A stretch of DNA of 64,000 nt from Chloroflexus sp. Y-396-1 (GTDB taxonomy: Bacteria; Chloroflexota; Chloroflexia; Chloroflexales; Chloroflexaceae). The stretch covers positions 1,396,881-1,460,880 of the forward strand of contig NZ_KI911784.1 of NCBI RefSeq assembly GCF_000516515.1, in the 5' to 3' direction. A program made the translations under genes and the position numbers. This document shows positions 28,372 to 31,348 of the stretch, one piece after another. Each line of letters starts with the position of its first letter. Position 1 is the first letter of the stretch. Under the pieces are notes generated by a model. It was not told where the DNA came from and searched no databases. It worked only from the letters and a program-made list of their open reading frames with translations.

Positions 28372-28788
28372 CTACGCCTCACTCGATGTCTCCGTTGTTT
28401 CCGTGGCCGCCGATTCGACGGTTTCAACCGGCTCGGTACGAATCGGTTTTTCGTCCACCAGTACCAGGAGGTGACGAAGAATGTTGTCATTCAACCGGAT
28501 CGCCCGATCTAGCTCGGCAACTTTGGCAGCGCTCAACTCGAGGGTGAAAAAGACGTAATAACCCTCAGTGAACTTGCGCCGGCTGGCTTCGCCAGTCACA
28601 TATTCACGGATGGGGTACGCCAGCTTCCGACGGCCCCACGGCGACGACTGGCTCACAGTGTAGACTTGTCCGCCAAGCTGTTCGACCGTCTGCTTAATGC
28701 GGTCGATGTTGGCAGGAATGCCCTCTTCGTTTGCGTACAACGGATTGATGATGATGACAAGTTCGTACTTTCGACGACGATCGCGCAC
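28372..28788 (-). CDS. rpsF: 30S ribosomal protein S6
   Basis: The 138-residue protein has the S6 fold: RKYELVIIINPLYANEEG, the middle GRRKLAYPIREYVTGEA, and YYVFFTLELSAAKVAELDRAIRLNDNILRHLLVLVD. A glutamate/threonine-rich tail (about 118-138) extends beyond the conserved core. It binds 16S rRNA with S18 in the platform of the small subunit. GAGGAGGATTTTGTGCGCGATC lies upstream (AGGAGG about ten bases before the start). First gene of the rpsF-ssb-PPIase transcript. Confidence 0.95.
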   Translation of the reverse strand: MRDRRRKYELVIIINPLYANEEGIPANIDRIKQTVEQLGGQVYTVSQSSPWGRRKLAYPIREYVTGEASRRKFTEGYYVFFTLELSAAKVAELDRAIRLNDNILRHLLVLVDEKPIRTEPVETVESAATETTETSSEA

Positions 28789-28905
28789 AAAATCCTCCTC
28801 TGGTGACGTTTCGCTCAGCGTGCAGCCGGCAGCGCGTTCCGACCGTGTGGCGAAACAGAAAGACTAATGGGAGCATCCTGTAACACTCCCTCGTAACATC
28901 AAGCG

Positions 28906-28914
28906 ATTATAACA
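28906..28914 (-). promoter_or_regulatory. Extended -10 promoter for rpsF operon
   Basis: On the minus strand TGTTATAAT gives a consensus TATAAT with a TGn extension, about 118 bases before the rpsF start. No convincing -35 is present. The leader contains GGGAG…CTCCC inverted sequence at 28868-28890. Confidence 0.6.
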
Positions 28915-29296
28915 CAACCTTGACCAATATGATGTCGGATATTCAACGGTTTCACCTCACCCGACAGTGGAATGAGATGAGAGGGAAGAGCAGTGAAGAG
29001 AGATAGATACATTCCTAACCCGTCCGCTCTACGTGTAGAGACGCACAGTTTTCCGTCCCAAAATGAACGGCCCGACTTCCTGTTGGCTCACCAATCATAG
29101 GCTGAATATGGTCAGGGGGTGGGGTGCAATATAACGCGGGTTGCCGCCTGCCCATCCAGGCAGTTGCGTAGATCGCGAGTCATCAGCAGCGGGCGGGTAA
29201 TAGTTTTCAGTGTCGCTCCGCTGTTGAACCGTTCGGTCATTGGTGTCGTATCAGAAGCTGAGCACTCTAAACAGCCTTAAGTGGGCCATAAACCTA
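28915..29296. other. Intergenic region upstream of the RNA candidate
   Basis: About 380 bases with no supported gene, repeat or RNA. Short ORFs lack ribosome sites and motifs. Confidence 0.4.
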
Positions 29297-29325
29297 TTGA
29301 CGGCTACCTGCAACAGATGTATAAT
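29297..29325 (+). promoter_or_regulatory. Near-consensus sigma-70 promoter
   Basis: TTGACG (29297-29302), a 17-base spacer and TATAAT (29320-29325). It is among the best promoter matches in the window, yet no gene starts within 500 bases downstream. Expected transcription start is near 29332. Confidence 0.75.
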
Positions 29326-29331
29326 GCGTTT

Positions 29332-29668
29332 CCGGTCGAGCCAATCGACCATGTCATTCGCGCCCCCCGTTACGTTTGGGTTACGGGTTTCGCGTTTCGG
29401 GAAGGCACCCGATACTCGCAACACGCAACACCGAACGCCGAGCGGAAATCGTCGTCATGGCAATGTCGATTGCCCAGGGTATAAGACGGCGTCGGGTGGG
29501 CTAGTGTGAGGCAGTATGGACGGCGCATACAATTTACGCGCGATTCAGCGCTTACCAAACTGCACACCTGTACGCCGTGCGTCGGTAGAATTGCTTTACT
29601 AGACGTGCGCGAGTGACGCTGCACGCTCTCGCTCCTCCGGCCGCTGCATCAGGTGCAGGGCCTTTTTT
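29332..29668 (+). ncRNA. Candidate structured non-coding RNA or long attenuated leader (about 337 nt)
   Basis: The segment is bounded by a near-consensus promoter on the left and an intrinsic terminator on the right, and has no credible ORF with a ribosome site. Local stems are visible: GGTCGA/TCGACC at 29334-29350, CCCGT/ACGGG around 29376-29397, CGGG/CCCG around 29398-29411, and the terminator stem. It lacks the RNase P core (GAGGAAAGTCC), the tmRNA tail and the SRP GGAAG hairpin as I know them. It could be an independent RNA or the leader of the decarboxylase gene at 29831, with the terminator acting as an attenuator. Confidence 0.45.
29639..29668 (+). terminator. Intrinsic terminator
   Basis: GGCC-G-CTGCA pairs with TGCAG-GGCC around a TCAGG loop (one bulged G), followed directly by six T (29663-29668). 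It lies 163 bases before the nearest downstream gene start. Confidence 0.8.
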
Positions 29669-29830
29669 CATCCCCTGACGCTGAATCGCTATCACCATGG
29701 CGTTGTTGTGCCCGTCACAACAACAGCCACTGTACGCTTGTGATCTTGCCCGCTTCTGGTGGGAAGGGTCTCGTCTTGCCGTGGTTTCGTTACGCGGGTC
29801 ATTATCCGCCTTACAGACAAATGGAGGGAT

Positions 29831-31348
29831 GTGGTACAGTTGAAGACGCTAACCTTTGCCGATTTGATTGCACAACAGACCGGCTTTGCCGGTGAAGGCC
29901 GCCTGACCGATTTCGTGAGCCGCTACGATGGTGAGCTTTACTTCGGCGATCATCTCAACTTGAATCGGCTGGTACGTCAATATGGCGCACCTCTGGAAGT
30001 TGTGTATACCCCACAAATTACCGCTCAAGTCCGACGAATGATCGACTGGGCTGCGCAGGCTCGTGTCAGCACTGAATACGCAGCACCGTTTCACTACGCC
30101 TATGCGACGAAAGCAAACTTCGCCGCCGAGGCAGTGAAAACGGCATTAGCCGCCGGCGCTCATTATGAAACCTCGGCAACTGCCGATCTGATTATTGCCC
30201 ATGGTCTCTGGCGTCAGGGTGTTTTGCCTCCTGATCGACTGATCTGCTGCAACGGATCGAAGGAGCCAGCGTACCGCGACGCGATCCGTCAATTTCGCCT
30301 CGACGGTTGCGAGACGGTTATTCCCGTTCTCGATGATCTCTCCGAATTACGTGATCTGATCACCACTTCTGCTCCAATCCAATTTGGTGTGCGTGAGCGG
30401 GCTGCCGGAAACCGTGATGGACGTCATCCAGGAAACGATCGTTTTGGTCTGACAACAACCGAAATCGAGCAGGCTGCCACAATAATCGCGGAAACTGACC
30501 ATCGTCTCGTGCTTTACCACGCGATGATCGGTAGTCAGATCGAAGATGAAGCTCATTTTCTGCATACCCTCCGCGCTTCAATTGAGAATTACTGTCGTCT
30601 ACGCCGCCGTGTGCCAACGTTACGCTACTTCAATTTCGGCGGTGGTGTGCCAACAGCCGGTTATCAATTGCAGTTCTCCTTTGATTACCAGCGCTTTCTC
30701 AGTCGGCTGATGACAACGATCAAGGAGATATGTGCCGATTACGAGGTGCCTGTTCCTGAGTTAATCGGTGAGTTTGGGCGCTACACAGTAGCAACCCACA
30801 GCGCTTATCTGGTTGAAGTGGGCGCTGTCAAACAGGGACAACCCGATCAACCGGATTGGTATCTGGTTAATGGATCGCTAATGGTGATGCTGCCCGATAC
30901 GCTCTTTGTCAGTGGACAGGAATTCGTGATCTTGCCCCTCAGCGACTGGCACCGTCCGCTACGTCCGGTGCGACTTGCCGGTCGTCGCACCTGCGATAGC
31001 GATGACATTTACCCGCGACCTGATCGGCCACCATTGTGGCTACCGGCGACTGATGGCGGACTGATACTGGCCATTTTTGGAATTGGTGCGTATCAGCAGA
31101 TGATTTCCGGGCGTGGTGGGGCACACCACTGTCTGACTCCAGAAGCGGCGCGCTTCATCGTCGAAGAGCGTAATGGTCGCCTTAGCTCACGTTTAGTACC
31201 ACAGCAAGACCAGGCGACGATTATGCGGTTACTTGGCTATCGACCTCAACCAACTGTGATGCCGCTACCGTTCCGCCAACCAGCCCGCCCAGTGGTTTTA
31301 GCTACCCGACGGCGCACCCGTGACCGTGAACGGGCGGTGTCGGTCTAG
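29831..31348 (+). CDS. PLP-dependent decarboxylase, arginine-decarboxylase-like (fold type III)
   Basis: The roughly 505-residue protein belongs to the Orn/DAP/Arg decarboxylase 2 family. An alanine-racemase-like barrel carries the PLP lysine K94 in HYAYATKANF, a glycine-rich phosphate loop (YFNFGGGVPTAGY) and a beta domain with the active-site cysteine C388 in CDSDDIYP. GIGAYQQM recalls the GAYQE block of biosynthetic arginine decarboxylase, so polyamine synthesis from arginine is a reasonable guess, but lysine, ornithine or diaminopimelate cannot be excluded. The start is uncertain: GTG 29831 or TTG 29840 after GGAGGG; the longer ORF back to 29759 lacks conserved sequence. Confidence 0.75.
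   Translation: MVQLKTLTFADLIAQQTGFAGEGRLTDFVSRYDGELYFGDHLNLNRLVRQYGAPLEVVYTPQITAQVRRMIDWAAQARVSTEYAAPFHYAYATKANFAAEAVKTALAAGAHYETSATADLIIAHGLWRQGVLPPDRLICCNGSKEPAYRDAIRQFRLDGCETVIPVLDDLSELRDLITTSAPIQFGVRERAAGNRDGRHPGNDRFGLTTTEIEQAATIIAETDHRLVLYHAMIGSQIEDEAHFLHTLRASIENYCRLRRRVPTLRYFNFGGGVPTAGYQLQFSFDYQRFLSRLMTTIKEICADYEVPVPELIGEFGRYTVATHSAYLVEVGAVKQGQPDQPDWYLVNGSLMVMLPDTLFVSGQEFVILPLSDWHRPLRPVRLAGRRTCDSDDIYPRPDRPPLWLPATDGGLILAIFGIGAYQQMISGRGGAHHCLTPEAARFIVEERNGRLSSRLVPQQDQATIMRLLGYRPQPTVMPLPFRQPARPVVLATRRRTRDRERAVSV

Follow-up and report, generated by a model that had tools for sequence, protein, structure and literature searches.

A leader RNA with a small reading frame upstream of an arginine-decarboxylase-like gene in Chloroflexus and its relatives: a candidate translation-dependent attenuator

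In the genome of Chloroflexus sp. Y-396-1, assembled as one contig of 4,890,986 bases, a promoter and a terminator enclose a stretch of DNA that ends shortly before a decarboxylase gene. Is this stretch the source of an independent RNA, or is it the leader of the gene that follows? A preliminary description of the window, i.e., the 64,000 nucleotides analyzed here and used to number all positions, took it for a promoter-to-terminator unit without a gene. We find that it is a real leader RNA with a small reading frame, which matches no Rfam family and for which we found no description in the open-access literature searched. Its parts are the following:

29297-29325, plus strand: sigma-70-type promoter, TTGACG (29297-29302), 17 nt, TATAAT (29320-29325), with an 11/12 match to the consensus.
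29334-29350, plus strand: P1, hairpin GGTCGA-GCCAA-TCGACC beside the predicted transcription start, with changes on both sides in 3/6 pairs.
29362-29369, plus strand: 5' strand of P2, GCCCCCCG, which closes a multi-helix domain; 7/8 pairs are invariant in the home group and the helix differs between groups.
29373-29444, plus strand: P3, a long hairpin with bulges that hardly varies in the home sub-group and has one match in its own genome.
29450-29491, plus strand: P4, a hairpin with changes on both sides in 6/7 pairs.
29493-29501, plus strand: 3' strand of P2, CGGGTGGGC, ending 6 nt 5' of GAGG, placed by pairing and covariation.
29508-29511, plus strand: Shine-Dalgarno sequence GAGG of the small frame, placed by sequence and kept in relatives.
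29516-29602, plus strand: small reading frame MDGAYNLRAIQRLPNCTPVRRASVELLY, ATG at 29516, 28 codons and a stop, recurring in relatives.
29639-29668, plus strand: intrinsic terminator, hairpin GGCCGCTGCA-TCAG-GTGCAGGGCC followed by six T, found by a scan; in relatives the T run is also preceded by a hairpin.
29840-31348, plus strand: short arginine-decarboxylase-like gene with a TTG start (alternative GTG at 29831), assigned by PF02784 and with its start context kept.

The TTGACG-17-TATAAT promoter, the GC hairpin with six T ending at 29668, and the local hairpins are all where the preliminary description had put them. Promoter-like sites occur at the level expected by chance (one found vs 1.2 expected in 2 kb, both strands), terminator-like sites above it (six vs 1.8 expected in the scan), and the predicted fold of 29332-29670 beats 100 of 100 shuffles (z -3.3). 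The unit is more than a chance assembly because the promoter, P1, P2, the Shine-Dalgarno-ATG element and, usually, the terminator are found again, in unchanged order, in further genera and families. In Chloroflexus and four families of its order, the succession is promoter, P1, P2-closed domain, ribosome site, AUG(G/A)AC frame, usually an intrinsic-type terminator, and the gene. An alignment of 24 loci keeps the promoter, the 5' hairpin, the long hairpin, the Shine-Dalgarno-ATG element and the terminator; TATTGAC is invariant in 24/24 and the -10 box is TATAAT, TACAAT or TATACT. Comparable promoter boxes are present in other families.

The segment had been said to lack the features of RNase P, tmRNA, SRP and 6S RNAs, and this holds: a cmscan with all 4227 Rfam families gave no match to 28780-29860 at E ≤ 5. 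Known RNA families were thus set aside at this locus, by the Rfam search and by model searches of the genome itself. The only genomic match to RNase P RNA (RF00010) lies elsewhere, at 4137410-4137844, and scores 86 bits against a curated cut-off of 100; a genome-wide search for 6S RNA (RF00013) found nothing at E ≤ 10, which may reflect a limit of the model. The 6S and RNase P RNAs of this genome may be divergent. A degenerate repeat was also rejected: P3 is single-copy in its own genome and has in other genomes only short partial matches and a 38-nt piece (in G027). Repeated DNA lies further upstream. The stretch 29146-29279, just 5' of the promoter, resembles eight further places of the genome at 74-86% identity and is a dispersed repeat outside the leader.

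Conservation in close relatives was found by DNA search, alignment and covariance model. A DNA query of 981 bases matched 25 of 61 genomes, that is, 25 of the 37 from the same family (its own included) and none of the 24 others; the decarboxylase itself was found in 57 of the 61 relatives. We took 34 upstream stretches from the genomes without a DNA match, from G030, and from the second copy in G009, and a profile search recovered the Shine-Dalgarno-ATG part in 28 of them at a loose threshold (E ≤ 0.15). A scan of named genomes, from which the best 80 of 89 loci were used, includes Chloroflexus islandicus, Chloroploca, Viridilinea, Oscillochloris, Roseiflexus, and Herpetosiphon. We split these 80 loci by decarboxylase identity into 65 near (at least 50%) and 15 distant (at most 43%) ones; "Chloroflexales side" is our label for the near loci, because L129, L134, L152, and L172 are titled as other groups. 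The distant loci are titled Anaerolineae or Anaerolineales (five), Thermoflexia (one), or only Chloroflexi or Chloroflexota (nine). In family f2, promoter and frame are present in L157, L159, and L165 and, by eye, in L086 and L087; the ribosome site is less typical there and P2 was seen by eye only. A covariance model searched over 158 genomes of the class matched 31, of which 30 are in the home family. The match in G113 (E 0.003) was taken as false, as it lies in a repeat-rich place where no decarboxylase frame was seen.

The gene downstream was described as a decarboxylase starting 163 nt past the terminator, which agrees with the GTG at 29831 counted from 29668; the distance is 172 nt from the TTG at 29840, the start position that is kept in relatives. 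Its product is a fold-III PLP decarboxylase (Pfam PF02784). NCBIfam profiles of the SpeA type give 100-116 bits and LysA 87 bits, all below the NCBI cut-offs, while a separate LysA elsewhere in the genome reaches 422 bits, and the best solved relative, PDB 3n2o, is an arginine decarboxylase. From these profiles, the gene's predicted role is probably that of a polyamine-making, arginine-decarboxylase-like enzyme. C. aurantiacus is credited with an "ancestral short-form ADC" in the available text of PMC7857480, which is likely the gene of this leader.

The same gene follows the RNA on the same strand in all 25 genomes with a DNA match, and adjoins it in the 30/30 home-family genomes matched by the covariance model, G063 being cut at a contig end. 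G017 and G027 have their contigs cut at the leader-gene locus, and G027 has two further RNA pieces, of which one is 38 nt long and the other lies at a contig end. This linkage bears on the idea that the segment encodes a small RNA acting in trans, perhaps together with a small peptide, and only happens to adjoin the decarboxylase gene. Such an RNA would have its own promoter and terminator, as here, and the model search finds one full copy per genome, the contig-end pieces in G027 aside. However, wherever checked, the RNA precedes the same gene and is in line with it, whereas the gene on its other side varies between genomes, and we regard a trans-acting role as very improbable.

An RNA without reading frame can be rejected as well. 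The preliminary description saw no ORF with a ribosome site, which is wrong, since GAGG (29508-29511) and the ATG at 29516 open a frame of 28 codons; nor is "without a gene" supported, the short frame being the most widely kept part of the unit. Among the best 80 of 89 loci, 63 near ones have 240 nt or more of upstream DNA, and 60 of these carry a TATG(G/A)AC(G/A) frame of 22-42 codons whose stop lies before the gene. The exceptions are L144 (269 nt upstream), L152 (353 nt), and L169, a divergent second copy. No such leader frame was found in the 14 distant loci of this set with enough upstream DNA, where two matches to the pattern open frames of 143 and 14 codons. In 58/58 distinct sequences, frame 0 is open for 22-42 codons, against runs of 20-45 codons in 13/58 and 19/58 for the other two frames; most of the 58 were first picked by filters for 15-60 codons and for a ribosome site, neither of which was used for the 60/63 count.

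The start of this frame is its best-kept part. A T precedes the ATG in 48/48 distinct starts. Codon 2 is GAC (45) or AAC (3), codon 3 encodes Gly, Val, or Ala in 47/48, and codon 6 encodes Asn in 36/48; codons 2 and 3 were fixed in part by the search pattern itself. Of the 26 distinct starts with Leu at codon 7, 18 use TTA, which perhaps keeps the start region unstructured. In the Roseiflexus-titled loci another sequence replaces the usual GAGG. Past the first codons, the peptide is barely conserved, which counts against an attenuator. The pN/pS ratio is 0.61 for codons 2-7 in all sequences; in five home-group sequences it is 0.48 for codons 2-8, 0.65 for codons 9-18, and 0.99 thereafter, and in three Chloroflexus sequences it is 0.90 for codons 2-18. 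Across 63 distinct frames the tails differ, with neither a regulatory codon run nor a conserved peptide end, and an Arg-Arg codon pair occurs in some frames only. Since the peptide is poorly kept, these patterns suggest that in Chloroflexales it is translation as such, rather than the peptide, that matters.

The RNA upstream of the frame is structured. A structured RNA had been proposed, and one that is kept in relatives is borne out by covariation in the home group and, for P2, across groups. The consensus consists of P1, stem P2 that closes the domain, the long P3 hairpin including its tip, and P4. In the home group (23 distinct sequences, 45 pairs), 99.4% of 1030 cells are paired, a value biased in favor of the structure because the structure was derived from these same sequences. 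The changes on both sides of pairs in P1 and P4 are stronger evidence for the structure than this percentage. Over all pairs, 58 cells are changed on both sides vs 16.2 in shuffles, and 13 pairs show such changes vs 6.9. Further pair types are not clearly above the shuffles in the home group (29 vs 26.7; 64/500 shuffles). When the structure is slid along the alignment, pairing falls to 37-41%.

P2 is the helix that can be followed between groups. It reads GCCCCCCG/CGGG-GGGC in the home group, GCUCAUCUGG/CCAGAUGAGC in the other loci on the Chloroflexaceae side, GCUCUCCGG/CCGG-AGAGC in Roseiflexus, and GCCUUCUCGG/CCGAGCGGGC in Herpetosiphon. Over 50 loci, 195 of the 200 cells of its outer four pairs are paired; swapping the 3' strands gives a mean of 171.8 and reached 195 in 0/2000 trials, a control that corrects incompletely for the P2 register having been fitted to pairing. 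A duplex test on long segments was uninformative (cognate -28.2, other-clade -26.0, shuffled -26.3 kcal/mol). With short segments the values were -17.0, -12.9, and -12.2; the difference from other clades is clear only in the home group, while shuffles are clearly surpassed in f1b and most loci of the Herpetosiphon group but weakly so in the home group and in part of the Roseiflexaceae. The domain was tested independently with a covariance model whose sequences all came from the home sub-group. In 13 of the 38 loci from other groups, this model recovered the whole domain where it was expected (E ≤ 0.0032), the best misplaced match being at E 0.014, and it had no match at E ≤ 0.0032 in 12 more distant Chloroflexota loci. 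It also missed every Roseiflexus- and Herpetosiphon-titled locus given, which counts against our reading.

In these analyses, the truncated L022 was left out of alignment A1, and L013 and L027 out of the model alignment A4. The clade tests (duplex, masking, terminator, P2 swap) exclude L127, which has too little upstream DNA, and the near-duplicates L109, L112, L115, L117, L120, L121, and L136; L164 is excluded from the short-segment duplex, Shine-Dalgarno-masking, and P2-swap tests. L157, L159, L165, and L141 enter only the frame count and the peptide and model tests.

Such a domain could itself be the sensor. The P2-closed domain would then be a riboswitch that directly binds arginine, agmatine, putrescine, or spermidine and controls ribosome loading or terminator folding, with the frame as its expression platform only. 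As far as structure alone goes, a conserved structured domain does precede an expression platform: a covarying multi-helix domain lies ahead of the Shine-Dalgarno site and the terminator, P3 is nearly invariant with its bulges kept in the home sub-group, and a decarboxylase gene follows. Yet nothing like P3 is visible in the alignment of the other groups, which would be unusual for an aptamer core, and the similarly placed alpha-proteobacterial speF element bound no tested compound of the polyamine pathway, according to the available text of PMC1273637. We consider a riboswitch unlikely.

The succession of promoter, short frame with its ribosome site, intrinsic terminator, and structural gene is that of an attenuator. 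A TTTT run with a preceding hairpin lies at most 120 nt past the stop of the frame in 46 of 51 loci, the hairpin of L133 being weak; the run is absent in the other five, which counts against attenuation. It starts about 60 nt past the stop codon in the locus itself and about 43-97 nt past it in relatives where the terminator was found. The promoter scan gave no second promoter-like site from the leader to the decarboxylase gene, which speaks for attenuation. Predicted pairing of the Shine-Dalgarno site has no consistent pattern between species, and masking of this site was therefore rejected. An unsystematic look at the leader revealed no mutually exclusive or conserved antiterminator, a point against an attenuator. 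Positions 29540-29550, in the small frame, and 29679-29689, just past the terminator, are perfectly complementary over 11 nt. Similar pairing with different letters is present in several genera and is not statistically general: only 15 of the 46 loci show pairing that is equaled by at most 5/100 shuffles, and in the home group and one Roseiflexaceae group a neighboring control stretch had the better average. With no consistent masking, no antiterminator seen, and no general helix from the frame to the region past the terminator, we infer the coupling step.

We consider it probable, by a modest measure, that the segment is the 5' leader of the arginine-decarboxylase-like gene and a cis-acting, translation-dependent transcription attenuator. 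The preliminary description had suggested an attenuated leader, and a structured RNA in cis to a decarboxylase-like gene with a terminator between them supports that idea. The sequences themselves show which parts there are, how they are ordered and covary, and that they are linked to one gene; to this the proposed mechanism would add a transcript, translation of the frame, control of termination by this translation, and a signal from arginine or the polyamine pathway. RNA polymerase would start near 29332 and make P1 and the P2-closed domain, which ends 6 nt before the Shine-Dalgarno sequence. Ribosomes would load at GAGG and translate some 30 codons, and whether and how fast they do so would decide between termination, giving an RNA of about 337 nt, and read-through, giving expression of the decarboxylase. 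The signal may be arginine or a compound of the polyamine pathway, sensed by the structured domain or by the ribosome. By analogy with speF leaders, as described in the available text of PMC1273637 and PMC6386406, it would most likely be a product or substrate of the pathway.

The nascent peptide could instead sense the metabolite and stall the ribosome, as in speFL/orf34. A small frame does stand 5' of the gene throughout the order, and many home-family frames contain R(H/Y/F/L/S)P(D/N)CT. However, the C-terminal part varies freely within the order and no single codon run is kept; a shared motif obtained by Gibbs sampling (384 vs 309-327 in 12 shuffles) is confounded because the rows are related. 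The best case for a peptide comes from family f5, in another order of the class, which we take to be Chloroheliales. Five of its genomes have a decarboxylase-like gene (40-41% identity), and in all of them (G082-G086, L196-L200) the preceding frame, of 24-31 codons and with a ribosome site, has the fixed C-terminus VRHPS(T/A)TAG-stop. The gap to the likely ATG of the gene, counted by eye, is about 34-41 nt. P2-like helices of ten pairs form in 5/5, yet 12-70 of 200 shuffles are equally good. No such frame was seen in G097, the sole f10 genome with the gene, and no open-access paper containing "RHPSTTAG" was found. From its sequence, the f5 frame looks like a candidate arrest peptide, while for the Chloroflexus leader we hold an arrest peptide to be quite unlikely. 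A composite scenario can be conceived, which we also think unlikely: an RNA domain that binds an arginine-pathway compound would set translation of the short frame, and passage of the ribosome, not the peptide, would set the intrinsic terminator of an ancestral-type arginine decarboxylase, a layout that in the VRHPSTTAG-stop lineage became, or came from, a true arrest peptide.

To our knowledge, the known control of polyamine synthesis by leader RNAs concerns ornithine decarboxylase genes of proteobacteria. The leader described here belongs to the gene of an arginine-type enzyme and is conserved across an order of a different phylum; it unites structure, small frame, and terminator in a single unit. 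Its relatives form a natural set of variants for testing the interplay of RNA structure, upstream translation, and termination, and are perhaps also informative on the sensing of arginine or polyamines.

We found no description of this element in open-access literature, as judged from titles and abstract openings among the matches listed. The three comparisons that follow are limited to the available text of the papers cited. Chloroflexi-1 RNA (RF01698) is a candidate structured RNA from Chloroflexus aggregans (PMC2864571); its model of 84 positions has no match at this locus and only two in the genome, elsewhere and far below the cut-off. The speF element of alpha-proteobacteria (RF00518; PMC1273637) is, like this leader, a long structured leader near a putative transcription start and 5' of a PLP decarboxylase of the same broad family, and the gene here is likewise a COG0019-like PLP decarboxylase, as judged by PF02784 and SpeA/LysA-like profiles. 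Unlike this element, the leader has no Rfam match at E 5, belongs to a different phylum and gene, and includes a small frame and a terminator as parts of the unit. The orf34-speF leader of Salmonella (PMC6386406) also has a small frame within the long leader of a polyamine decarboxylase gene, and translation of orf34 acts on transcription termination. That leader, however, has a Rho-dependent terminator, and a pair of consecutive arginine codons is important in it, whereas the terminator here is of the intrinsic type and Arg-Arg is confined to some frames. The leader would act in the manner of the known attenuated leaders of polyamine decarboxylase genes, and by the tests made it belongs to none of them.
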